Shown: one piece after another, positions 4,264 through 18,762 of the stretch | How the letters are laid out: every line of letters begins with the position of its first letter | How positions within the stretch are numbered: position 1 is the first letter of the stretch | Source: a virus | DNA: 20,391 nucleotides | IMG/VR virus record: IMGVR_UViG_3300017530_000153 | Location: 1-20,391 of that record | Reading direction: 5' to 3' (one strand) | The notes under the pieces: generated by a model | Told to the model about the DNA's origin: nothing | Database searches by the model: none | The model's input: the letters and a program-made list of their open reading frames with translations, nothing else | Translations under genes and position numbers: made by a program

Positions 4264-4461
4264 ATGCCATTTAAGGTAAAAGTGAAAGCGGCCACTACGA
4301 GCAAGGTGTTTGTGCCAGGGCTTGGGCTGTTCGTTCCAAATGAGTGGACGGATGTATCGGATGAGGATGCAGTTCGGTTCGAATCCATTCGGGGCATAAG
4401 CCTGGAGGATTGTGGCCTGGAAGTAAAGAAGACCGCATCAAAGAGAAAGGAGAGTGAGTAA
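4264..4461 (+). CDS. Small basic protein before the tail tube, unknown
   Basis: A 65-residue protein with a clear ribosome site (AAGGAGAA) before ATG 4264. It ends in a Lys/Glu-rich tail, and its stop overlaps the tail tube start (TAATG). The N-terminal KVKVKAATTSKVFVPG and the VPNEWTDVSDEDAV segment resemble short proteins found next to tail tube genes, where a 'value, then threshold' type beta hairpin is common. I cannot name a family. Translational coupling with the tail tube gene suggests a tail role, but there is no direct evidence. Confidence 0.55.
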   Translation: MPFKVKVKAATTSKVFVPGLGLFVPNEWTDVSDEDAVRFESIRGISLEDCGLEVKKTASKRKESE

Positions 4462-5399
4462 TGCCAGCTGGAATTGGAGCTGCAGGTTCTATTGGACTAG
4501 CTTTTGAAGTTACTCCAGGTACCTACGTTGCTCCGACTAAGTTTGTACCAGTTAGATCGGAAGGTCTACGGTATATTCAGGAGATCAACTACACACGGCC
4601 GATCATAAAGACAGCCGTCGAACCAGTCTACGCTGTTAAGGGGCCAGGTCATGTAGAGGGCGATATCGTGTGGGAGGTTCTCACTGATACGTTCCCTTAC
4701 TTTTTGCATGCGGGTCGATACACAGTAGTTAAGGCTGGAGCGGCCCCGTACACCTATACCTACACACCAGCTGCTACGGCACAGGAAGCTAATAGGACGC
4801 TTTCTCTAACCGTAGTTCGCAACGGTATCGTATTTGGTTATACCGGGTGTGTTCTAGGTAGCATGTCGATAACCGTAGAAAATGGAATGCTCGTTGGCAC
4901 CATGGGTATGATGGGTCGTAACGAGGCTGTAGCGGCAGTACCAACGGAAACCTACGTTGAACTATCGCCTCTCGGTGCGGATTCTCTAACGATTGAGATT
5001 CCCACTGCGACAGCTATTACTGACGCAGGATCGTTTACCTTCGAGGTCGACGACAATGCGGAGGCTCAGTTCCGCCTAGGATCCCTAGCTGCACAGTACA
5101 TCGGCTACGGTGAGCGAGACATATCGGCAGAAGTCGAGAGGGATTTCATCGATAGGACACAGTATGATCTGTATAAGGCTCTGACTGCACAGTCAGTTCA
5201 CTTCAGATCAGAAGATCCAGCAGATGCTACCCAATACATTGACTTCCTGATTGATGCAGGAGTCATGGACACCTACGAGTCCTTCCTAGAAGGGCAAGGT
5301 GATATCATCACGGCGGCCCTCAGCTTCACTGGTAAGTACGACTTTACTAATACAAGGTCGCACGTCATCGAAGTCGGGACTAGCGAGAACATAACCTAA
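4461..5399 (+). CDS. Tail tube (major tail) protein
   Basis: A 312-residue beta-rich protein resembling the phage tail tube family found in actinobacterial and other siphoviruses. The start (GIGAAGSIGLAFEVTPGTYVAPTKFVPV) is typical of these proteins: a Gly/Ala-rich opening, 'E.TPGT...PT.F.P...', then a RPI.K strand and a KGPGHVEGDIVWEV block (about residues 55-72). Further strands follow to the C-terminus. Hexamers would stack around the tape measure to form the tail tube. There is no sheath-like gene after it and the chaperone frames follow directly, supporting a non-contractile tail. Confidence 0.8.
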   Translation: MPAGIGAAGSIGLAFEVTPGTYVAPTKFVPVRSEGLRYIQEINYTRPIIKTAVEPVYAVKGPGHVEGDIVWEVLTDTFPYFLHAGRYTVVKAGAAPYTYTYTPAATAQEANRTLSLTVVRNGIVFGYTGCVLGSMSITVENGMLVGTMGMMGRNEAVAAVPTETYVELSPLGADSLTIEIPTATAITDAGSFTFEVDDNAEAQFRLGSLAAQYIGYGERDISAEVERDFIDRTQYDLYKALTAQSVHFRSEDPADATQYIDFLIDAGVMDTYESFLEGQGDIITAALSFTGKYDFTNTRSHVIEVGTSENIT

Positions 5400-5427: not shown

Positions 5428-5853
5428 ATGCCAAGAGCGACCACCTCTGTTGAAACAGTCCGCCACTCTCTAAAGTCGGCTCCACCGGATGGGTTTGTAG
5501 ACCTTCGTCCTATGGACTACGGCGACTTTCTTAAGCGCCGTGATATGGCTATGAAGATGGGAGTAAGGGGAGCTGGATCGAAAATTGAGAAAATTGACCT
5601 GGATATCCTTCAGGAGGAAGTAACACGCTTTGAGTTTAAAGTTTGTGTAGGAGAACACAACCTAGAGGATGCGAACGGTCGTCTTCTAGTACTAGGAGAT
5701 CCTAAGGATTTCAAGCGTCTTGACCCTAAAATAGGGCAAGAGATTTCCGATCTAATAAGTGAGATGATCCAATGGGAGGGACCTAAAAGAGACGGAGATG
5801 CTTCAGAAGGAGATAGAGCGGACGTTGATGTTCCCGAAGACGGCGAAGCCTAG
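5428..5853 (+). CDS. Tail assembly chaperone, upstream frame (G-like)
   Basis: A 141-residue protein in the tail-assembly-chaperone slot between tail tube and tape measure, with an AAGGAGAT site before ATG 5428. It is helical and charged; the last 25 residues are a low-complexity acidic tail (DGDASEGDRADVDVPEDGEA), as is usual for the zero-frame product of such genes. These chaperones bind the tape measure and recruit tube protein during assembly, and are not part of the finished virion. A second frame overlaps the 3' end and continues to the tape measure gene, which strongly suggests a G/GT frameshift pair. The sequence is too divergent to match a named family by eye. Confidence 0.7.
   Translation: MPRATTSVETVRHSLKSAPPDGFVDLRPMDYGDFLKRRDMAMKMGVRGAGSKIEKIDLDILQEEVTRFEFKVCVGEHNLEDANGRLLVLGDPKDFKRLDPKIGQEISDLISEMIQWEGPKRDGDASEGDRADVDVPEDGEA
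5768..5853 (+). other. Candidate programmed frameshift region (G to GT)
   Basis: The two chaperone frames are both open only here. The move needed is +1 (or -2), not the more usual -1. Two candidate +1 sites are visible in the upstream frame. The first is CCT-AAA-AGA (AAAA at 5785-5788), where the lysine tRNA can re-pair on AAA after slipping. The second is GTT-CCC-GAA (CCCG at 5833-5836), where a proline tRNA can slip from CCC to CCG. The second gives a fusion joining DVDVP to KTAKPSFEVL. Confidence 0.5.
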
Positions 5854-6037
5854 CTTTGAAGTCTTAAGCATTATAGAGCTGACTCAACTGTGTAAGGTGC
5901 TTAACGTTCTACCGAGAGAAGGCGGACTTTTAGATCAGGATGCTAGGACTGTACGGGGGATGCAAATGGTCCTGGTAGCAGAGACCAAACAGGCAGAGGC
6001 GGAGATGAAGAAAGCGAAGCGTGGCACTCGCAACTAG
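5798..6037 (+). CDS. Tail assembly chaperone, downstream frame (T domain of a GT-like fusion)
   Basis: This frame is open from 5768 (after a TGA at 5765-5767) to the TAG ending at 6037, overlapping the upstream chaperone frame by about 86 bases and the tape measure start by 17. It encodes a helical segment (SFEVLSIIELTQLCKVL, then a basic Lys/Glu-rich end). The first ATGs in frame are at 5798 and 5828; neither has a well-placed ribosome site (AAGGAG at 5807-5812 is 15 bases from 5828). I therefore think it is made mainly as a fusion with the upstream frame by a +1 (or -2) shift, as for lambda G/GT and relatives. The size fits a T domain. Confidence 0.6.
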   Translation: MLQKEIERTLMFPKTAKPSFEVLSIIELTQLCKVLNVLPREGGLLDQDARTVRGMQMVLVAETKQAEAEMKKAKRGTRN

Positions 6038-8657
6038 GGAACTAGAACTAGTTATTATCGCTCGTGATCGGGCGAGTGCCACTCTTGCGCGTGTTGGAGG
6101 CGCCTTAGCTATCTTGGGAGCAGGAGCCTCACGTCTTGGTGCTAAAGGTGTAGGCCTTTTTGCTTCAGCTACGAAAGAGGCTATTGAATTTCGCCGTAAC
6201 ATAGCTCTAGCCTTCACTCAGGTTGAAGTCGCCGGAGCTACGTTTGATGACGTTCTTGAATTAGTCAGGGAGAGCGCTAAGAAAACGGCTGTCCCTATTG
6301 AGGAACTAACCGAGTCAACGTTCGACATCTTCTCTACTCTTACCCTAGACACTATGGGTCAGGCTAGCGAGCTTCTAGACGAGTTTGCTAAGTCAGCCGT
6401 TTCTGGTCAAGCTCCCATCAGGGATATTGGGCGGGCTACCATCGCCTGGCTTAACGCTCTGAACCTAGCTCCTACCGCTAAGAACGCGGCTCGTATTCTG
6501 GACATTCAATTTGAGCTGGTCCGCAAAGGTGCTGGTACGTATACCGAGTTCGCTACAGTTATGGGTAAAGCCATACCTCCGTTTGTTGCCGCTAACCAAA
6601 CTGCAGAAACTATGGCTGCTTCCCTAGCCTTTCTTACCAGAAACGGTCTTAGTGCAGCTGAGGCAGCTACCTCAGCCTCTAGGGCTGTGGAGCTGCTCTT
6701 CGGTCCTAAGGCTGTTGTAGGTCTTCGTAAAGTAGGAATCGAACTGGTCAATGAAGAAGGCAGATTCCGAAGTATAAGGGACATGATGACTGATATTGTT
6801 CCTTTGTTCCAGAAGCTAGACGATGCGGAAAGGAAACTTAAGTTCAAGGAGATCTTCGGACAGGGTAGGATTCAGGCTCGAAGGTTCTTTGATCTAATCC
6901 TAGCTGAAGGTAACTTTGAGGAGTTTCTCTTCCTGCTAGACGAGGTGGAGGCCTCGCCTGGAGCTGTAGCTGAAGCCTTTAAGATCATGATGGATCAGCC
7001 TGCTATCCAACTTGAAGTTTTAACAAACCGGTTTAGAGTCCTTAGGGATGAGATCGGTGATGTCTTTATACCCTTCCTGACTACTAGAGTCATCCCTGTG
7101 ATGGATAAGATCCTTAAGATCTGGGAGGACCTTGACGATATTCAGAGAGAGAATATCCTCAAGTGGTCCGCCTTTGCTACGATCTTCCTTACAGTAGGTG
7201 GCGCTTTAACAGGGATAGTGGGTGCTTTTATTCTGATCATAGCTCTGCTCAAAGTGTTCACCGGGTCCGCACTTATCGCCGGTATCGCAGCTGGGTCAGT
7301 TGCCCTAGTGATTAGTACTATAGCGGCGGCTATAGCACTAGCTATTATCGACTGGGATAAGTTTGTAGAAATCTTTGGTCCTTGGTGGGATAAGATTTTA
7401 GATAAGATGCAGCCTGTGGTTGACTGGCTTGAGCGGATCTGGCCTGCGGCTTGGGAGGGGGCTAAGGATGCTTACCAGTCGGCGTTAGACTGGTTCGAAG
7501 ACGATTGGCCTGTCATATGGGAGGGCTTCAAATCAGGGATCGAGGATTGGCTTGAGAACGATTGGCCGGTTATCTGGGGGAATGCTGAAACCGCTATTGG
7601 AGGGTTCGTAGCCTTCTTTGTCGACCTTTGGGATAACAAACTCAGGCAGCCGCTAATTGATTTCTGGGGCTGGATTGTAGAACGTTGGGATCTCATCTGG
7701 GGGGATCTTAAAGGCTTCTTTGAGGACTTTGTCAGCGCTGACTGGGGGCCCCTATGGGATGAGATTAAAGGGGAAGTCGAGGACGTACTCCCAGAGATAG
7801 AGGAGTTACTAATCTCTCTAGGCAGGTTGTTCATTGCGATCTTTGGTGTCATCGTAGCGGTTGTTGGGTTTATATGGAAGAACTTCGGCGATGAGATAAT
7901 CGAAAGTGTACGTATTTTAGTTAACATCATCGGAGGGTTTGCAGAATTCCTGTTGTTAACAGTTACAGGCTTTGCAGATATTATTACTGGGATCCTTACA
8001 TTAGATCCTGGTCTAGTACTTGCGGGAGCCGAAAAGCTCGATGAGGCCGTCGTTGTGGGTATTGTTACAACCTTCGAAACGATTAGAGATGAGGCCATAC
8101 TAACCAAAGACGTTATAGAGTCCGCTCTTAAAATACCAGGAGATCCCCTCGTTAGGAACCTCAAGGAAGGGGCTGGGGATCTAAACAGGTTCTTAGCCAC
8201 AGTAGATCGTAACGCGCTTGAAAAACTTTTAGGACCAGAAGACTTCAAGTTCCTTGAAGAGTTCCTAGGACCAGTAGATCGCAGCATACTTGACTTCCTC
8301 TTCCCAGAGAAGGTTAAGGAAGAGAAGGTGACTGCACTAAAACAAAGCGCCATAGATGACCTGAACAGGATACTAGACGAAGTAGAGCAATCCGTTCAGC
8401 CGAGGACTATTGAGTCCTTCATAAAGGTACGTATTATCCCACAGTTCTTGGAGGAAGACATTTTAAGCGGTTTAATGCCTTCACCGATACTATCCCAGTT
8501 CAATGCAGACACGGGTGGCCAGTTCGTTTCTAGAGAGAATCAGCCAGGTGGCAGGGTCAATATGAACATCGAGAATTTCAATACCAATGCTGACCCGGAA
8601 CAAGTAGCGTCAGATCTAGCTTGGCGTTTGAACGTAGGAAAGATAGGAGCTGAGTAA
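6021..8657 (+). CDS. Tail tape measure protein
   Basis: The longest gene of the virion block (878 residues), directly after the chaperone frames. It sets tail length and is threaded through the tail tube. The N-terminal 300 residues are helical, with an MPIEELTEST...TAIAWLNALN...AEAATSASRAVELLFGP pattern common to tape measure N-domains. Residues about 385-440 are strongly hydrophobic (membrane-spanning type). Residues about 455-575 are rich in Trp in repeated units, and another hydrophobic stretch lies at about 610-665. The start is GTG at 6021, overlapping the previous frame by 17 bases, with only a weak ribosome site, so coupling to the frameshift product is likely. By the usual rule of about 0.15 nm per residue, the tail would be near 130 nm (inference). 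Confidence 0.88.
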   Translation: MALATRELELVIIARDRASATLARVGGALAILGAGASRLGAKGVGLFASATKEAIEFRRNIALAFTQVEVAGATFDDVLELVRESAKKTAVPIEELTESTFDIFSTLTLDTMGQASELLDEFAKSAVSGQAPIRDIGRATIAWLNALNLAPTAKNAARILDIQFELVRKGAGTYTEFATVMGKAIPPFVAANQTAETMAASLAFLTRNGLSAAEAATSASRAVELLFGPKAVVGLRKVGIELVNEEGRFRSIRDMMTDIVPLFQKLDDAERKLKFKEIFGQGRIQARRFFDLILAEGNFEEFLFLLDEVEASPGAVAEAFKIMMDQPAIQLEVLTNRFRVLRDEIGDVFIPFLTTRVIPVMDKILKIWEDLDDIQRENILKWSAFATIFLTVGGALTGIVGAFILIIALLKVFTGSALIAGIAAGSVALVISTIAAAIALAIIDWDKFVEIFGPWWDKILDKMQPVVDWLERIWPAAWEGAKDAYQSALDWFEDDWPVIWEGFKSGIEDWLENDWPVIWGNAETAIGGFVAFFVDLWDNKLRQPLIDFWGWIVERWDLIWGDLKGFFEDFVSADWGPLWDEIKGEVEDVLPEIEELLISLGRLFIAIFGVIVAVVGFIWKNFGDEIIESVRILVNIIGGFAEFLLLTVTGFADIITGILTLDPGLVLAGAEKLDEAVVVGIVTTFETIRDEAILTKDVIESALKIPGDPLVRNLKEGAGDLNRFLATVDRNALEKLLGPEDFKFLEEFLGPVDRSILDFLFPEKVKEEKVTALKQSAIDDLNRILDEVEQSVQPRTIESFIKVRIIPQFLEEDILSGLMPSPILSQFNADTGGQFVSRENQPGGRVNMNIENFNTNADPEQVASDLAWRLNVGKIGAE
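7422..7604 (+). repeat. Trp-rich repeat units in the tape measure
   Basis: Three imperfect protein repeats begin at residues 468, 490 and 509 (DWLERIWPAAWEG, DWFEDDWPVIWEG, DWLENDWPVIWGN), spaced 22 then 19 residues apart. More loosely spaced Trp pairs follow to about residue 575. Such periodic aromatic repeats are known in tape measures. Confidence 0.6.
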
Positions 8658-9478: not shown

Positions 9479-10588
9479 ATGCCTTTCTATGAAGTCGTAG
9501 CCTACGCTAGAACTCAGCAAGCTGCTGCTATACCTACCTTTGTCGAGTTGGGACATATCTTCTCTGTGGCGGGTTCTAGAGGAGGGGGAGAGTCTCAGGA
9601 GTCAGGCGGACTTGCCTGGTCTAAGGAGCTGTATGGCGACGGCTTGATATCTGTATCTACCCTCCCCGAACAGCTAAACGACGACATCGGAGCACGTCTT
9701 AGAGACATGACAAATAAGCCGACAGAGTTAGGAATCTTCAGAGATGGAGTTCTTATGCAACGAGGTCCGCTTATTGCCTGGCAGGTGGAAGGCGAAACGC
9801 TAGTCCTTCACGCTCGAGGGCTTGCTTACTACATGCGCTATATGTTTGTGACTTCTGATCTGACCCTAAGTCAAGATCAGGCCTTTATTGCTCGAGATCT
9901 GATTGATCATCATCAGAATAAGAGCTACGGCAACTTCGGTCTTGTTACGTCCGGGATAACTTCACATAGCCAGAACCGTGCTCGGGAGTACAAGGCAGGC
10001 GAGCAAATAAACATATACGAGGAGATTCGTGATCTGGGTGAAATAGACAACGGCTTCGATATGGTTGTAAACCCAGTGACCAGAAACGTTGTTCTTACTA
10101 GCCCGTCTAAAGGTGCAGCCAAGCCAGCTTCTATTCTGGATAACAGGGTTATTGTTTCTCCAAACCTATCGTCAGTAGTAACAGCAGGACGGTTTGGCTC
10201 TGCTGCCTTTACTGCAGGAGTTGACTCAGCAGGAGCTCTCCAAACGGCTATTGTAGAGAACGCTGCTGTTAAGCAGAATTTCGGTCTAGCCTACGTTGCT
10301 AGAGCGGTACCAGGTATCGATAGTACTAGCGATCTGACCGATATAGCTACTCGGACGAGTGAGATTACCGGAGTGGAGTTATTTACGCCCAACAAGAAGT
10401 ACTTCTCCGCTACTGGCATAAGTGTTGACGACTTTGATATTGGCGATACCATCACCTTCGATTACGATGCTGGATTTGGCCGACTAGTAATTAACACTCG
10501 TGTTAAAAATATGTTCATCTCGGTTACAGCCGGCAACCTGGAGCTCCTAACACTTGAATTTGTAGAACCGGTTGGTGCGCAAATATGA
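9479..10588 (+). CDS. Tail hub / Tal-like minor tail protein
   Basis: A 369-residue protein after the Dit-like gene, in the position of the tail hub or tail-associated protein that closes the tail tip. The pattern resembles the ReqiPepy6 Gp37-like family of actinobacterial phage minor tail proteins: an N-terminal beta domain with LGIFRDGVLMQRGPLIAWQVEGETLVLHARGL (about 81-113), a helical insert with an ARDLIDHHQN segment, then IDNGFDMVVNPVTRNVVLTSP and a C-terminal domain with a long strand-rich region. No peptidase or glycosidase motif is visible. It ends in an ATGA overlap with the first of three paralogous genes. The family call is from memory of typical patterns, so treat it as probable. 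Confidence 0.6.
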   Translation: MPFYEVVAYARTQQAAAIPTFVELGHIFSVAGSRGGGESQESGGLAWSKELYGDGLISVSTLPEQLNDDIGARLRDMTNKPTELGIFRDGVLMQRGPLIAWQVEGETLVLHARGLAYYMRYMFVTSDLTLSQDQAFIARDLIDHHQNKSYGNFGLVTSGITSHSQNRAREYKAGEQINIYEEIRDLGEIDNGFDMVVNPVTRNVVLTSPSKGAAKPASILDNRVIVSPNLSSVVTAGRFGSAAFTAGVDSAGALQTAIVENAAVKQNFGLAYVARAVPGIDSTSDLTDIATRTSEITGVELFTPNKKYFSATGISVDDFDIGDTITFDYDAGFGRLVINTRVKNMFISVTAGNLELLTLEFVEPVGAQI

Positions 10589-11373
10589 CCACCTTTACTA
10601 ACAGCGAGCATGAGGTTAGTCGACGGCGAGATGTAGACGACCTCGAACATGCCGTTCGGCCTGACCACGTTCACCGCAGACGGCTACCTATACCCTGTAC
10701 CGAACCTCGTATACTCGGAAACTTACTAACCGACCCTGGATTTGAGAGCATCTTAGCAGACACTGGTGGAGGGTCTGAAGGTGACGAAATCTCAACCTTT
10801 GCGTACTTTTACGATTACTTTCTGTTTGGCAATGTTGGGCTTTCTGGTTCATATCAATACTGGCGCGATAAGGCTTTTGCACCGTTTAACCATTGGACTC
10901 AGTCTGATGGTGGGGGCTCTCCTTCTCCTAGTAGTGATAGGGTGCATGTGTCAACTAGCAATCCGAGAACGGGTGCCTACCACGTGCGCTGGGGGAGCAA
11001 TGCGGCGTTTGGAGACGTTGTCTTCAGTCAGCAACAACTGTGCACTTTAGGCGACCCTGCAAGTGCTGACCTTACCGGACAGTGGGGAGGCCAATATTCA
11101 GCTCGAGTCGACCCAGGTGATACTGTTACTTGGGGAGCCTTTTTAGAGGCCTCCACTGGAACGAATACCGTACGAATCCGCGCTAGTTATTGGAAGCAAG
11201 ATCAATCAAGCGCAGCCGATTTTTTCCCTGATTACACTATAGGTACAACCTATGCATATCGTGAGTTAGTGACCGTTGCACCGGCCGATGCCTACTACGT
11301 TGTTGTTTCCATACAGTTACGAACCTTTATAACTAGTCTTGACGCCGACGACTTCGTATTTACAATAACATGA
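10585..11373 (+). CDS. Tail tip/fibre paralogue 1, predicted carbohydrate-binding-like
   Basis: First of three tandem related genes, 262 residues, starting in an ATGA overlap with the hub gene. The N-terminus has basic and acidic residues, then VHRRR...CTEP.ILGNLLTDPGFE (about 30-54), a motif shared by all three copies. The rest is beta-rich, with PGDTVTWGAFLEA (about 176-188) and a last strand DADDFVFTI, as in galactose-binding-like (CBM) sandwiches. The N-terminal motif probably attaches the protein to a common platform while the sandwich faces outward for receptor contact (inference). This copy is the most diverged, with LGNLL where the others have LSANIL. Confidence 0.55.
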   Translation: MTTFTNSEHEVSRRRDVDDLEHAVRPDHVHRRRLPIPCTEPRILGNLLTDPGFESILADTGGGSEGDEISTFAYFYDYFLFGNVGLSGSYQYWRDKAFAPFNHWTQSDGGGSPSPSSDRVHVSTSNPRTGAYHVRWGSNAAFGDVVFSQQQLCTLGDPASADLTGQWGGQYSARVDPGDTVTWGAFLEASTGTNTVRIRASYWKQDQSSAADFFPDYTIGTTYAYRELVTVAPADAYYVVVSIQLRTFITSLDADDFVFTIT

Positions 11374-12185
11374 GCTACACTAGACCTGATCGTACTATCG
11401 AACCCTTTCGTGATCTGAGTATCGAGGGGTTTGGTAAGCGTGCGCACTCTCATAAAAGAACTGCAAATGTCGCGCCCTGTGTGGATCCGATAAGAGTCCT
11501 CTCGGCTAATATACTTAAGGATCCGGGGTTTGAACAGCAAACGGCTGTTTTCGGTACAGGACCTAACCTAGCTAACGATATACCTCACTCAACTATAGCC
11601 GCTAGTAATATCCCACTTAGGTGGGTGGACCCAAGCGATACTGATAGTACTAACGATCCAGAAGCTGGCAGGTCTACCTACTGGATGCAGGACTACACCC
11701 AGAAACTGGACGTGCGTTGGCAAACTTCAGCCGTAAGCCCTCGCTCTGGAACTAGACACGCTCGTAAGTTAATGGAGTCGCGAACCGTTTCTAACGGAGC
11801 AGGTCTTGATGACGGAATAATGTTTGCCGATCAGATTACTAGGTGCGAGGCTCCAATTGCTACTGGACAGGAGTTGGCTACAGCAGCTGTACTACCAGGT
11901 GACATTGTTACCTGGTCGTTTTACATGGCAGCTGATGTTCTGACCGCTTCGCCGCTTGTACACTTACAGATGAATGCCTTAGCGGCAGACTGGTCAAACA
12001 CTCTCTCAAACGCCTTCTGGGAGATCTTAAATCTAAACCTGACTGCCTCTTACGCTCAGTATTCACTTCAAGCTGTAATGCCTGCTGGAGCAGGGTGGGT
12101 ACAATGTTGGGCAGCTCCTGATCACACAACAGGAGTGGTAGCTACAACCGTTGATATGGACGACGCGGTGGTGAGTATAGCATGA
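11370..12185 (+). CDS. Tail tip/fibre paralogue 2, predicted carbohydrate-binding-like
   Basis: Second of the tandem set, 271 residues, linked by ATGA overlaps at both ends. The N-terminal region carries the shared signature: Pro-Asp-Arg opening, RDL, KRAHSHKR, Cys36, then RVLSANILKDPGFE (to about 54). The C-terminal part aligns with its neighbours at PGDIVTWSFYMAAD and at the final MDDAVVSIA strand. The middle is variable, consistent with a surface under selection for new receptors. It is the longest of the three. No enzymatic motif is visible. Confidence 0.55.
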   Translation: MSYTRPDRTIEPFRDLSIEGFGKRAHSHKRTANVAPCVDPIRVLSANILKDPGFEQQTAVFGTGPNLANDIPHSTIAASNIPLRWVDPSDTDSTNDPEAGRSTYWMQDYTQKLDVRWQTSAVSPRSGTRHARKLMESRTVSNGAGLDDGIMFADQITRCEAPIATGQELATAAVLPGDIVTWSFYMAADVLTASPLVHLQMNALAADWSNTLSNAFWEILNLNLTASYAQYSLQAVMPAGAGWVQCWAAPDHTTGVVATTVDMDDAVVSIA

Positions 12186-12895
12186 CCTCCTACCTAGTAC
12201 CCGATAGGGCAACAGGACGAGTTCGTGACTTAGACCTAGATAGTCACGTTAAGCGTTCGCACTCACACCGCGAACGGCTCATCGTCGAGTGCACAGAACC
12301 TCTCGTATTAAGTGCCAATATACTTCGGGATCCCGGATTTGAACTAATGCAAGGACTAACTGGAAAGACTGAGATCCCTGAGCTCAACCTCCTCTGGTCC
12401 ACTCTTACTTGGCAGGACTCCGCAGTAGCACCTGCTACTGTTGGCTGGGCAAACCAAGCATATACAAACGCAGCGTTTTGGGATCTTTCATCTGTAGGAC
12501 CAGAAACAGGAACCTGGTCAGCACGAATAGATGGCACAACAGGCACATCAACATCAACTGAGTTGGCTGTGATTGGTCTAAACGGTTGTGGTGACGGTGA
12601 TTTTTATTCGGGGAGGTGTGCTCCGAGTAACTTCACTCGTGCAGCCTGTCGTGCTATTGTGGATTCTACTGCTGGTACTCCATACCTGGATATCAATATG
12701 GAATGGTGGAGAGAGGATGGCTCGTTTATCGACTCAGCAGACTTACTTAATGCACCTCTTACAACCAGCTATGCTACCTATCAAACGTCCGGAGTTGCTC
12801 CTGCTGAATCGTACTTCCTTCGAGTTTACTACTCTGTAGCTAACGAGACAAACAGAATTATCTACCTAGACAACGCCGTCTTAGAGGTCACATGA
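12182..12895 (+). CDS. Tail tip/fibre paralogue 3, predicted carbohydrate-binding-like
   Basis: Third of the tandem set, 237 residues, again with ATGA overlaps at both ends. It shares with copy 2 the opening PDR, RDL, KRSHSHR, CTEP and VLSANILRDPGFE. The C-terminal half resembles carbohydrate-binding sandwiches best of the three: ETGTWSARIDGTTG, a LDINMEWWREDGSFID strand pair, YATYQTSGVAPAESYFLRVYY, and a closing RIIYLDNAVLEVT, close to the end of CBM4/9-type domains. It probably binds a host surface sugar, alone or with its paralogues (inference). Confidence 0.58.
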   Translation: MTSYLVPDRATGRVRDLDLDSHVKRSHSHRERLIVECTEPLVLSANILRDPGFELMQGLTGKTEIPELNLLWSTLTWQDSAVAPATVGWANQAYTNAAFWDLSSVGPETGTWSARIDGTTGTSTSTELAVIGLNGCGDGDFYSGRCAPSNFTRAACRAIVDSTAGTPYLDINMEWWREDGSFIDSADLLNAPLTTSYATYQTSGVAPAESYFLRVYYSVANETNRIIYLDNAVLEVT

Positions 12896-13661: not shown

Positions 13662-14387
13662 ATGGCAAGTTCAGCTACGAAACGAATATGGTACGCGAAA
13701 TACGCGTGCCAAAAGTCTGGACCTTTTCCTTGGATCGAAATACTAGGAAAAGATAAGCGCAAAGTTACCCCTGTGGCTATTGAGGCCTTCACAGCTTTCG
13801 ACCAAGCCTTAGCTAGAACGGAGTACGACGCCAGGGTTGTAGGCACCTATAACTGTAGGGCTATCACTGGAGGTCGTAAGCTAAGTCTGCATGCCTATGG
13901 TATAGCAGTAGATCTAGATCCTTACAGCTTTGGTAACCCTTACTATGGACGATCACATCCTAAAGGGTGGAAGTTCTCTTGGTCTGAAACTAAGTTTACT
14001 CCTAACCAAGTTCAGTCCGTTGAAGCGATCCGAACTAACAGTGGCAAGAAGGTCTGGCTGTGGGGAGGCCGTTGGAATACCATCAAGGACTACATGCATT
14101 GGGAACTTGATGTTCCTCCCAAAGACCTAGAGACCGGAATAAATTGGAAAACAGTGCCCGGAGGTGGTACATTGGCATTCTTAAGCGAAGAGGCACAGAA
14201 GTTCTTCGAGGCTACTTTTCAGGATATGAAGGCGGAGCTCGACCCCAAAACCAGTAAGGAATGGGGAACCGTACTGATCGAGGACTACCGAGATCGGAAA
14301 GCAAATCCTAATGGAGGGCTGACCGAAGAAGAGCTTGACGAACGTTATGTTCGTCGAGGCATCCAACAGACACTGACCTTCAAGTAA
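13662..14387 (+). CDS. Endolysin, M15 family zinc peptidase
   Basis: A 241-residue lysin of peptidase family M15 (VanY/L-alanyl-D-glutamate peptidase type), which cleaves peptide bonds in cell-wall peptidoglycan at the end of infection. The key motifs are SLHAYGIAVDLDP (His77, Asp84, zinc ligands) and HWEL (His146, third ligand), with CRAITGGRKLS just before the first motif, as in phage members. The catalytic core is about residues 30-150. The last 90 residues are helical and charged, end in GGLTEEELDERYVRRG, and may bind the wall or oligomerise; no known wall-binding repeat is visible. No signal peptide is present, so export depends on the holin. GAGGAGG at 13651-13657 is a strong ribosome site. 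Confidence 0.88.
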   Translation: MASSATKRIWYAKYACQKSGPFPWIEILGKDKRKVTPVAIEAFTAFDQALARTEYDARVVGTYNCRAITGGRKLSLHAYGIAVDLDPYSFGNPYYGRSHPKGWKFSWSETKFTPNQVQSVEAIRTNSGKKVWLWGGRWNTIKDYMHWELDVPPKDLETGINWKTVPGGGTLAFLSEEAQKFFEATFQDMKAELDPKTSKEWGTVLIEDYRDRKANPNGGLTEEELDERYVRRGIQQTLTFK

Positions 14388-15973: not shown

Positions 15974-16224
15974 TCCTTATACCTTTCTACGACTATGTGA
16001 GATCCTAGATCCTTTACATAGAGAGAAGGTAGTACGGATCCAGGCGGCGTATGAGGTAGTTCCTCGCTTTCAACTTGGATGCCTATAGATCGTCGTTCGT
16101 AGTCAAACCACCACGAGCTGGGTACTACTTCGTAGCCCTCAGGTAGTACTAGGCCGTGTGTTATTACCTTATGAGCTAGGAGTTCTGGTATAAATGCAAT
16201 AGCTCTGTTGCGCTCTCGTATCAA
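15970..16224 (-). CDS. 84-aa protein, unknown
   Basis: An 84-residue protein whose only plausible start is TTG at 16224, forming a TTGA overlap with the polymerase stop. A GGGGTG stretch about seven bases upstream may serve as ribosome site. The sequence has a Trp-rich strand region (PSSWWFDYERRSIGIQV, about 35-51) and a Pro-rich loop, and looks like a small beta domain. No family is recognised. Its translational coupling to the DNA polymerase suggests a replication-linked role, but nothing in the sequence proves it. Confidence 0.55.
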   Translation of the reverse strand: MIRERNRAIAFIPELLAHKVITHGLVLPEGYEVVPSSWWFDYERRSIGIQVESEELPHTPPGSVLPSLYVKDLGSHIVVERYKE

Positions 16225-18611
16225 TCGAGTTCACCCCAATTCCTGCCAATTTTGATATCGATCGGAAATGGTACGAAGCCTTCCATTTTCTCGTAGGCCG
16301 TTTCCTCCATGACCGTTTTCATATGGTGTGCTATTTCGTCTGCCTCCTTCTGTGGTGCTTCCACAACAAGGGCATCGTGGATCGGTATCCTGAGTAGGTC
16401 CCAGAACCCGTCGCGAGCCAACCTGTTTGCCGACTCAAGTGTGATGTCTGATGCCGTGCTTTGAGGTAGAAACGATCTTGCTTCCTTAAGTACATCCTTA
16501 CGATTCTTTGACGTGATGAGCCAGAACCTTCTATGGCGTCCAAAGGGTGATACAAGATCGTCTCCTCCTAGTACTGTTTCCTCTATTTCCTCGATCCACT
16601 TCACTGTGTGTGGGATGACCTCAAAGAAGGCGTTGATATAATCCTGAGCCTCCCTTGTTGACATGTTATGCTCCATGCCTAAGGAATATGCTTCCCTACC
16701 ATAAGCGAGTCCAAAGACAACCGCTTTCGCACGGACTCTCTGTTCCTTCGTGAAGTTTTCGCCATAGAATCTTCGAGCCACTTCGCTATGAATGTCTCTG
16801 GACTCGTCGGAAAAGACCTCTCGGAAGTAAGCATCCCTAGCCAGGCAACAAACCACTCGAAGTTCAGCTTGCCTGTAGTCAGCCTGGATAAAGACGTTAT
16901 CAGGAGTTGAAGGTATGAATTGTCTACGGAGTCGAGATCCTCTTGTGATGTTTTGAAGGTTAGGGTTACGTGAAGAGAGCCGTCCTGTGACCGTCCCGTG
17001 CATAAGGAAGTCAGTGAAAACTCTTGGCCTATCGTCGATGGTGACTGTTCGTTTTCTGATTCCTTCGATGTAGGTTCCATATGCCTTGGCCTCCTTCTTG
17101 AACTCCAGGTGTATCTTGCAGAAGTCGTATAGGGCCGCGTTACCTCTCTTAGCGGCAGCTTCCATTACAGCTACGATAGTTTCCTTACGCGTGTTTCTAA
17201 CCCGCTTGTTAAACTGTTCCTGTAGAGCTACGCTCACCTGCTGCCACGAGTTCGGGTTGTAGCTAGCGTTCTCTACGATCTCCCTTAAGGTACTAAGGTG
17301 GTCCTGAATAGTGGCTTGAACCTCTTCGCCGATCTCCTTGTTATAGTCAAGGTCTACACCAAGTCCGTTCATCTCCATCCGCATTAAGGTAGGTGACGTT
17401 CGAACCAGGAAGTCGTGAAGATCACTGAGTCCTTCGTGCTCGAGCTCTTCCTGAAGATTGTCTTTGAGTAGATAAGTATTGGACGCATCATAGGCGTTAT
17501 ACTTATAGAGTAAGTCACGTGGTGCGGCTGCGTAGTTCTTCCCGATAAAAGAGCGACGAAACTCAGCCTTCCAATCTGGTGATCCGAGTCTCTCAATCGC
17601 AAGTTGATCGAGAGAATGCGTTCCACGTCTCTCATCAAGGCAATAGTGAGCGAGCATTGTATCGAACGCCAATCCATTTAAGGCTCCTTCGGGATTGAAC
17701 TGGTAGAGGCCGGCCATGTCGAACTTTCCATTCTGTGCAATAATTCGCTTGTGTCCCAAGATGTCGCCGATGAGACTGCGAACAAGTCCGTTCTGACTTG
17801 GACCCTCACCCACGACAAAGGCAGCATTTGCTCTGTGAGAGAATCCAACACAAAGGAGTTGGTATTGATCTGGTCTTCCAAGGTCGGTATCCTTTTCGAT
17901 ACCGACCTCAATATCGACTGCAACCTCCTGAAGTCGCTTGGTGTTAAGGAGCTCTCGAAGGGCGAGAGTCGCCCCATGTGTATCGTCAAAGATTCTGATC
18001 GTAGGTACAGTCCAATTTCTAGTGCCATATGCTTCTCCTTTCAGCGCTGACTTAATCTTTCCAAAGTCGGTGATGATGTCTGGGAAGCTACCCGGATTGT
18101 ATAGTGCCGCTGCTGGGTGAAAAGTAGGGATAACCCTAATGTCGCCATCCAGGACTTCGGTCGACTTCGGAGGTCCAACTCTAGATTTGGTGATTGCCAC
18201 GTCATTTCCAAGTATAGTCTTCGTGGCGTAATTGCCGAGACTGACAACGACCTTCGGTCGACGTTCTTCGATCTCCCATACCAGTCGATTCTTACAGGCC
18301 CGTATCGCCGGTGTAGGTGGGTTGGAGTTGTCTTTTGGTCTACAGAGGCATGTGTTGGTGACGAAAACACCCTCTCGGGAGATTCCGGCGTGCGATAGTA
18401 TCTGGTCCAATAGTTTTCCTGCTGCTCCGACAAAAGGTTTACCTTCCCTTGCTTCGTTAAGTCCCGGTGCTTCTCCTACTAGTACTACGTCTGCCTGGTC
18501 AGGTCCGTCACTAGGTACGAAAACACTGTCAGTATATAGAGGACAGATCTCGCATTCAGCTAGTGGGTGTTTTCGAACGACGTCCACAGGAGCACTTACA
18601 TTTGCCTCCAT
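16221..18611 (-). CDS. PolA-family DNA polymerase with N-terminal family-4 uracil-DNA glycosylase-like domain
   Basis: A 796-residue replicative polymerase. Residues about 14-190 match family-4 uracil-DNA glycosylases: GEAPG (46-50), FVGAAGKLL, HPAA (165-168), and four cysteines (20, 23, 90, 106) placed as iron-sulfur ligands. Residues about 205-390 are a DnaQ-like 3'-5' exonuclease with its motifs intact (Asp233/Glu235; Asn294/Asp298; Tyr371/Asp375). Residues about 405-796 are the PolA polymerase, with motif A Asp578, motif B Arg625/Lys629/Phe633/Tyr637 and motif C His745-Asp746. No 5'-3' exonuclease domain is present. A GTG at 18629 would add six residues, but the ATG at 18611 has AAAGGA five bases upstream, so I prefer it. 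The same architecture is known from phage SPO1-type polymerases. Confidence 0.9.
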   Translation of the reverse strand: MEANVSAPVDVVRKHPLAECEICPLYTDSVFVPSDGPDQADVVLVGEAPGLNEAREGKPFVGAAGKLLDQILSHAGISREGVFVTNTCLCRPKDNSNPPTPAIRACKNRLVWEIEERRPKVVVSLGNYATKTILGNDVAITKSRVGPPKSTEVLDGDIRVIPTFHPAAALYNPGSFPDIITDFGKIKSALKGEAYGTRNWTVPTIRIFDDTHGATLALRELLNTKRLQEVAVDIEVGIEKDTDLGRPDQYQLLCVGFSHRANAAFVVGEGPSQNGLVRSLIGDILGHKRIIAQNGKFDMAGLYQFNPEGALNGLAFDTMLAHYCLDERRGTHSLDQLAIERLGSPDWKAEFRRSFIGKNYAAAPRDLLYKYNAYDASNTYLLKDNLQEELEHEGLSDLHDFLVRTSPTLMRMEMNGLGVDLDYNKEIGEEVQATIQDHLSTLREIVENASYNPNSWQQVSVALQEQFNKRVRNTRKETIVAVMEAAAKRGNAALYDFCKIHLEFKKEAKAYGTYIEGIRKRTVTIDDRPRVFTDFLMHGTVTGRLSSRNPNLQNITRGSRLRRQFIPSTPDNVFIQADYRQAELRVVCCLARDAYFREVFSDESRDIHSEVARRFYGENFTKEQRVRAKAVVFGLAYGREAYSLGMEHNMSTREAQDYINAFFEVIPHTVKWIEEIEETVLGGDDLVSPFGRHRRFWLITSKNRKDVLKEARSFLPQSTASDITLESANRLARDGFWDLLRIPIHDALVVEAPQKEADEIAHHMKTVMEETAYEKMEGFVPFPIDIKIGRNWGELD

Positions 18612-18762
18612 GTCCTTCCTTTCTCCCACACAGGTGTGAACCTGAAAAGTAGGATGGAACCTCTTCGCAGGGTGCTTTTGCTAGCCACCCGTGAGAGCAG
18701 AGATCCTTCACGATCTTAAGCTCGTGATTCCGACTTCTCTGGAAGCTCTTCGGTTCTGTCAT
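18556..18762 (-). CDS. Small Cys-rich putative zinc-binding protein
   Basis: A 68-residue frame bridging the DpdA-like and polymerase genes, overlapping the first by 47 bases and the second by 56. It has a CSHGWLAKAPCEE segment and then HLCGRKEGHGGKCKCSCGRR, two Cys/His clusters like the small zinc-ribbon proteins common in actinobacterial phages. The ATG at 18762 has no good ribosome site; a GTG at 18711, four bases after the DpdA stop, would give 51 residues that keep both Cys clusters and avoid the overlap. If real it could act as a DNA-binding or adaptor protein. The 105-base gap between its neighbours argues for a gene here. Confidence 0.5.
   Translation of the reverse strand: MTEPKSFQRSRNHELKIVKDLCSHGWLAKAPCEEVPSYFSGSHLCGRKEGHGGKCKCSCGRRSKTPTS

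Follow-up and report, generated by a model that had tools for sequence, protein, structure and literature searches.

A tail assembly chaperone pair that appears to be joined by a +1 frameshift in a phage family in which almost all relatives are -1

The DNA analysed in this work, hereafter the window, is a stretch of 20,391 nucleotides corresponding to positions 1 to 20,391 of the IMG/VR virus record IMGVR_UViG_3300017530_000153. On its plus strand, two overlapping ORFs are located between a tail protein gene (4461-5399, phrog_290), whose product is probably the tail tube judging from its position, and the gene of the tape measure protein (6021-8657, phrog_1533, E 5.6e-28), that is, in the place characteristic of a tail assembly chaperone pair. 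The upstream ORF (5428-5853, 141 aa), recognized from the ORF list and from its relatives, is G-like and terminates with a TAG stop codon at 5851-5853. The downstream open frame, which is T-like, extends from 5768 to 6037 (frame scan, relatives and a weak match to phrog_9001), and its first ATG, at 5798-5800, could be an independent start. The two ORFs overlap by 86 nt, and the downstream frame is +1 (equally -2) relative to the upstream one. This arrangement had been described in a first-pass annotation made from the letters of the sequence, and was found to be exactly as stated there. The same annotation had concluded that the pair needs a +1 or a -2 shift, which the frame relation confirms: a TAA at 5784-5786, at the very position of the slip site discussed below, closes the -1 frame, which is otherwise open for just 12 codons near the stop of G, and therefore a -1 shift cannot give a long product. 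The part of the T-like frame predicted to be translated after the shift is 5789-6034.

No match of the window G to named tail chaperone families was obtained in phrog and Pfam searches, and the Pfam search of the chaperone pair returned nothing relevant. The kinship of T to a named tail chaperone family is weak (phrog_9001, E 0.0084 for the window and 0.0079 for its relative L137), and one out of 17 G proteins of the relatives matched phrog_344 (E 0.0035). Because the support from named families is weak, the chaperone identity rests on position, architecture and relatives. On the strength of these features of the sequence, we take 5428-6037 to be a tail assembly chaperone pair of the G/GT type, and the identification proposed in the first-pass annotation is borne out by the location between tail gene and tape measure. 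Elsewhere in the window, three consecutive ORFs (10585-12895) with similar N-termini, ATGA overlaps and no Pfam matches appear to be tandem paralogues that lie within the tail genes; a Peptidase M15-like protein (13662-14387; PF13539, E 1.6e-12) is probably the endolysin; and an 802-aa ORF on the minus strand (16221-18629) encodes, in one protein, a uracil-DNA glycosylase domain (PF03167, E 6.9e-33) and a family A DNA polymerase with 3'-5' exonuclease.

Relatives were gathered from IMG/VR with G, T and the major capsid protein as queries, and both halves of the pair were then located by profile search. The resulting sample is composed of 104 loci, window included, with both G and T, forming 82 clusters at 90% DNA identity. 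It includes two weak T matches (L054, E 0.026; L075, E 0.001) and three loci (L063, L066 and L117) whose T frame was set by eye and counted as -1. Left out of the counts were L037, which is the window itself, L069 and L095, which lie at contig ends, four loci in which T was missed by the profile and is -1 by eye (L141, L142, L143 and L146), and L042-L048 along with further capsid loci without a G match to the profile. The tail tube query found no relatives and the tape measure query led to one distant locus; phage GenBank records gave nothing with the G query and nothing with the T query, and the search for relatives in prokaryote genomes was empty.

The T half is homologous to the post-shift half of the relatives, and out of frame with G, in each of the 104 paired loci. 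The frame relation is -1 in 97 loci and +1 in seven or, by cluster, -1 in 79/82 and +1 in 3/82, the only +1 clusters being the window, the L106 group and L137. An in-frame X_XXY_YYZ heptamer is present in the overlap of 66 of the 79 -1 clusters, whereas in either wrong register it is found in one of the 79; the commonest heptamer is GGGAAAC, found in 28 of the 62 heptamer-bearing clusters of an earlier set with 75 -1 clusters. A strict heptamer is absent from 13 of the 79. One further string may be mentioned, at 7387-7412 of L049, where the -1 shift would take place at GAG CTT TTT ACC, which is not a strict X_XXY_YYZ.

Judging from these frames and heptamers, the rule of the family is the classical -1 shift, and the window breaks this rule, as its frame relation is +1 and none of the frames at 5740-5853 contains an X_XXY_YYZ. 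Among the sequences searched, the window had no close relative. Its nearest capsid relative, L049 (79%), is -1 and, because the nearest searchable relatives are all -1, the site of the window has no conservation behind it. The first-pass annotation had held that its reading would fall if neither of its two candidate slip sites were conserved in related phages; taken literally, this is the case for the direct relatives, which use -1, and the site is specific to the lineage.

In order to locate the junction, fused proteins for every possible +1 junction were scored against a profile built from the fused proteins of 62 -1 relatives. The scores form a plateau of 218.5-222.7 bits across 5766-5799, all within 4.2 bits of the best; in a leave-one-out control on the -1 clusters, the heptamer fell within the 1-bit-of-best interval in 54/62 cases. 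The scan places the predicted junction of the window between about 5766 and 5799. Two candidate sites had been put forward in the first-pass annotation, AAAA at 5785-5788, before an AGA codon, and CCCG at 5833-5836; both are present in a register that fits +1 re-pairing, but only the former stood up to the scan. A junction at AAA_A scores 221.8 bits, within 1 bit of the best (222.7), while one at CCC_G scores 210.6 bits, which is 12 below the best and 11.2 below AAA_A. In addition, the T frame already encodes at 5813-5833 the segment IERTLMF, which junction scan and alignment pair with the IRASVVL-type segment of the -1 relatives; because homology has begun there, the shift must be upstream of it. 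Re-pairing of the P-site codon in the +1 frame, as required for a programmed +1 shift, is full (3/3 positions) at AAA_A alone among the codons of 5767-5848, and is at most 2/3 at the others.

At this favoured +1 slip codon, AAA would occupy the P site with AGA waiting in the A site, to be replaced by GAG after the shift. It should be noted that AAAA alone is weak evidence, because an in-frame XXX_X would turn up by chance in a stretch of 16 codons in about 12% (from the codon frequencies of the window) to 25% (996/4,000 codon shuffles) of cases. However, an SD-like GGGAGGG is present at 5774-5780, whose GGAGG core (5775-5779) ends 5 nt before AAA. Its energy with the anti-SD is -10.2 kcal/mol, compared with -7.1 each for the window starts at 5428 and 4461; of 3,794 coding positions, about 1% have energies so low. 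The combination of an in-frame XXX_X with an element of this strength within 1-8 nt is found at none of the 5,970 other codons of the window genes, at none of the 10,978 codons in the G genes of 75 -1 clusters, in none of 262 non-overlapping 16-codon stretches and in 9/4,000 codon shuffles, in a joint test that was framed after the site had been seen. As to the codons involved, GAG is used at 40.1 per thousand and AGA at 13.8, as in the forward-site rule of PRFect, by which the +1 A-site codon is commoner than the 0-frame one (excerpts of PMC10885494). Starvation at a rare Arg codon was considered and is not indicated by phage usage, AGA being the commonest Arg codon of the window (87/377), although the usage of the host may differ. 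Downstream RNA structure (pseudoknot or hairpin) was no better than in shuffled sequences (z -0.41 and 0.89).

We infer from these data how the shift might occur, at which codon, with what efficiency and with what role of the SD-like element. Ribosomes would mostly read G through to the stop at 5853. In a minority of them, the tRNA-Lys placed on AAA (5785-5787), with AGA waiting, would move forward by one base and re-pair on AAA (5786-5788), and reading would go on with GAG ACG GAG ATG into the T frame, yielding a fused protein of about 202 residues, ...MIQWEGPK-ETEMLQKEIERTLMF.... The shift would probably be promoted by GGGAGGG pairing with the 3' end of 16S rRNA, as in bacterial prfB. The +1 pair is real and probably functional, with AAA_A as the most likely site, and the specific mechanism, i.e. 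+1 slippage at AAA_A aided by the upstream SD-like element, appears to us reasonably likely.

Other explanations of the frame relation deserve consideration. A one-base error in the contig, or a recent indel in the lineage, might conceal a phage that uses, or used, -1 like its relatives. This would agree with the -1 relation of 79/82 clusters, among them L049, L050 and L051, which are closest by capsid, and with the fact that the -1 stop TAA at 5784 is about where the G genes of many relatives end. However, no X_XXY_YYZ is left in the region 5740-5853, whatever the frame, long ORFs elsewhere in the window are intact, the SD-like element and AAA_A would have to be together by coincidence, and two further lineages of the family are +1, one of them in four contigs; such an error is therefore considered unlikely. 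It appears a little less likely still that the downstream protein is made without fusion, from its own start at ATG 5798 and coupled to the translation of G. While the 79-aa protein starting there would include nearly all of the conserved part, the SD sequences are weak (-2.9 kcal/mol for 5798 and -3.2 for 5828; TTG 5825 reaches -6.8, but at the long spacing of 10). Nor is a start of this kind a feature of the family: any ATG, GTG or TTG is present 25-50 codons upstream of the core motif in 15/78 clusters, an ATG in seven of these 78, and an SD of -5 or better in four. An own start of T was rejected on these two grounds.

If, instead, a +1 shift is accepted and the site is questioned, the flatness of the junction scan, within about 4 bits over 5766-5799, would be compatible with slippage at some other codon within 5766-5811, but no remaining codon there re-pairs at more than 2/3 positions, and we give this possibility just as little weight as the unfused product. 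Slippage at CCC_G (5833-5836) appears very improbable. Pro CCC is a known +1 slip codon in Listeria phages, according to excerpts of PMC5009743, and is rare in the window (5.1 per thousand); nevertheless, apart from the low score of the junction, the conserved IERTLMF would in this case give way to the acidic tail of G. Least credible of all is a -2 shift in the manner of phage Mu, whose gpGT uses -2 (excerpts of PMC3498833 and PMC5009743). The same frame would indeed be reached, but -2 re-pairing is at most 2/3 at any codon of the region, and the junctions score about 2 bits lower (220.6 and 219.7, compared with 222.7 and 221.8 for +1).

The +1 shift at AAA_A, which we prefer to these explanations, can be compared with the other two +1 lineages. 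The L106 group (chaperone locus at 10555-11245 of L106; other members L129, L130, L131 and L132) is composed of four contigs, L106 and L131 being on the same contig, all +1 and free of indels over the part of the chaperone region that was compared; the candidate site of the group is UUU_CGC (L106 10945-10947). Over 746 bases, L106 and L132 differ at 24 sites. Of the 18 changes up to G position 363, 17 are at G third positions, while both overlap changes after the candidate site (418 and 454) and three out of four changes beyond the G stop are at third positions of the +1 frame. Judging from these substitutions, small in number, the constraint on the L106 group changes frame near the candidate site, as a real +1 shift predicts, which would make +1 workable in the chaperone family. 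The second lineage, L137 (2501-3074), is known from one contig only. It contains CCC_AAA_AGC_UGA, which is +1, also holds AAA_A, coincides with the best junction score (187.0 bits) and is directly followed by the stop of G. The string CCCAAAAG is shared by L051 (about 7202-7242), where it is read as C_CCA_AAA_G in the -1 register, and by L137 (2858-2869), where it is read as CCC_AAA_AGC in the +1 register; the window counterpart is CCU_AAA_AGA. This sharing suggests a way in which the direction could flip by an indel.

In a capsid tree of 55 clusters, L049 (-1) is the sister of the window, followed by L050 and L051 (-1), whereas L106 and L137 are placed elsewhere; three changes of direction are needed, also when the starred branches alone are considered. 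In contrast, the short chaperone alignment does not reject a single +1 clade (p-AU 0.739), and the tree held to such a clade scored better. A common +1 ancestor of the window, L106 and L137 is thus disfavoured by the capsid tree and not rejected by the chaperone alignment. Because the two data sets differ, and because tail genes may have recombined, we claim one to three switches. It is tentatively proposed, as a conjecture we would not yet favour, that within one tail-chaperone family the frameshift reversed from -1 to +1 on more than one occasion, a small indel re-registering an old slippery string and a new stimulator, for instance the SD-like GGGAGGG, tuning the new shift, so that the fused product is conserved while the direction is not.

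Programmed frameshifting has one of its classic model systems in phage tail chaperones, and no general motif is available for +1 sites. In the present gene family, three +1 lineages coexist with many -1 sites at one and the same junction, which allows one to ask how a frameshift reverses its direction and yet keeps its product. The window, which appears to be +1 when almost all its relatives are -1, indicates that a conserved phage frameshift can reverse its direction and still join the same proteins. It also supplies a concrete candidate, testable at low cost, for a phage gene in which an SD assists a +1 shift on a sense codon. Devaraj and Fredrick are said to have dealt in 2010 with short spacing and +1 shifting.

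Among known systems, the pair resembles lambda G/GT in that a short and a frameshift-extended chaperone are encoded beside the tube and tape measure genes (excerpts of PMC5009743), but lambda is -1 like 79/82 clusters of the family, and the window is +1 and without X_XXY_YYZ. A +1 shift in a tail chaperone is already known and is not very rare. For these genes, shifts of -1, -2 and +1 are all in use among tailed phages, and haloarchaeal HSTV-2 very likely uses +1 (excerpts of PMC5009743); in the joined genes of SEA-PHAGES, nearly all of them tail chaperones, 350 forward slippery-site cases stand against 2,368 backward ones (excerpts of PMC10885494), so that the 'small set' of +1 cases spoken of in the first-pass annotation was an overstatement. 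The window shares direction and gene with HSTV-2 and with the SEA-PHAGES forward cases, for which no general forward motif is described, and no arrangement of SD and AAA_A is found, in those excerpts. The literature searched, outside which most subscription papers lie, yielded neither a tail chaperone reported to have an SD-assisted AAA_A +1 site nor a chaperone family in which the direction is reported to have switched. Phage Mu gpGT (-2) reaches the same frame in a tail chaperone pair, but the window has no -2 re-pairing to match it. Influenza PA-X, with UCC_UUU_CGU (excerpts of PMC3498833), is an analogue for UUU_CGC of the L106 group only, having UUU in the P site and an Arg CGN codon waiting; it differs in its eukaryotic ribosome and its gene, and is not a parallel to the site of the window. 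That site resembles the one of prfB (RF2), without being identical to it: in prfB a purine-rich SD-like element likewise stands just upstream of the +1 re-pairing codon. However, prfB has AGGGGG, a spacing of 3 nt and CUUU followed by UGA (excerpts of PMC12421855), whereas the window has GGGAGGG, a spacing of 5 nt from the GGAGG core to AAA, and AAAA followed by the sense codon AGA. The new parts are the type of site, SD with AAA_A, and the switch of direction within a family.
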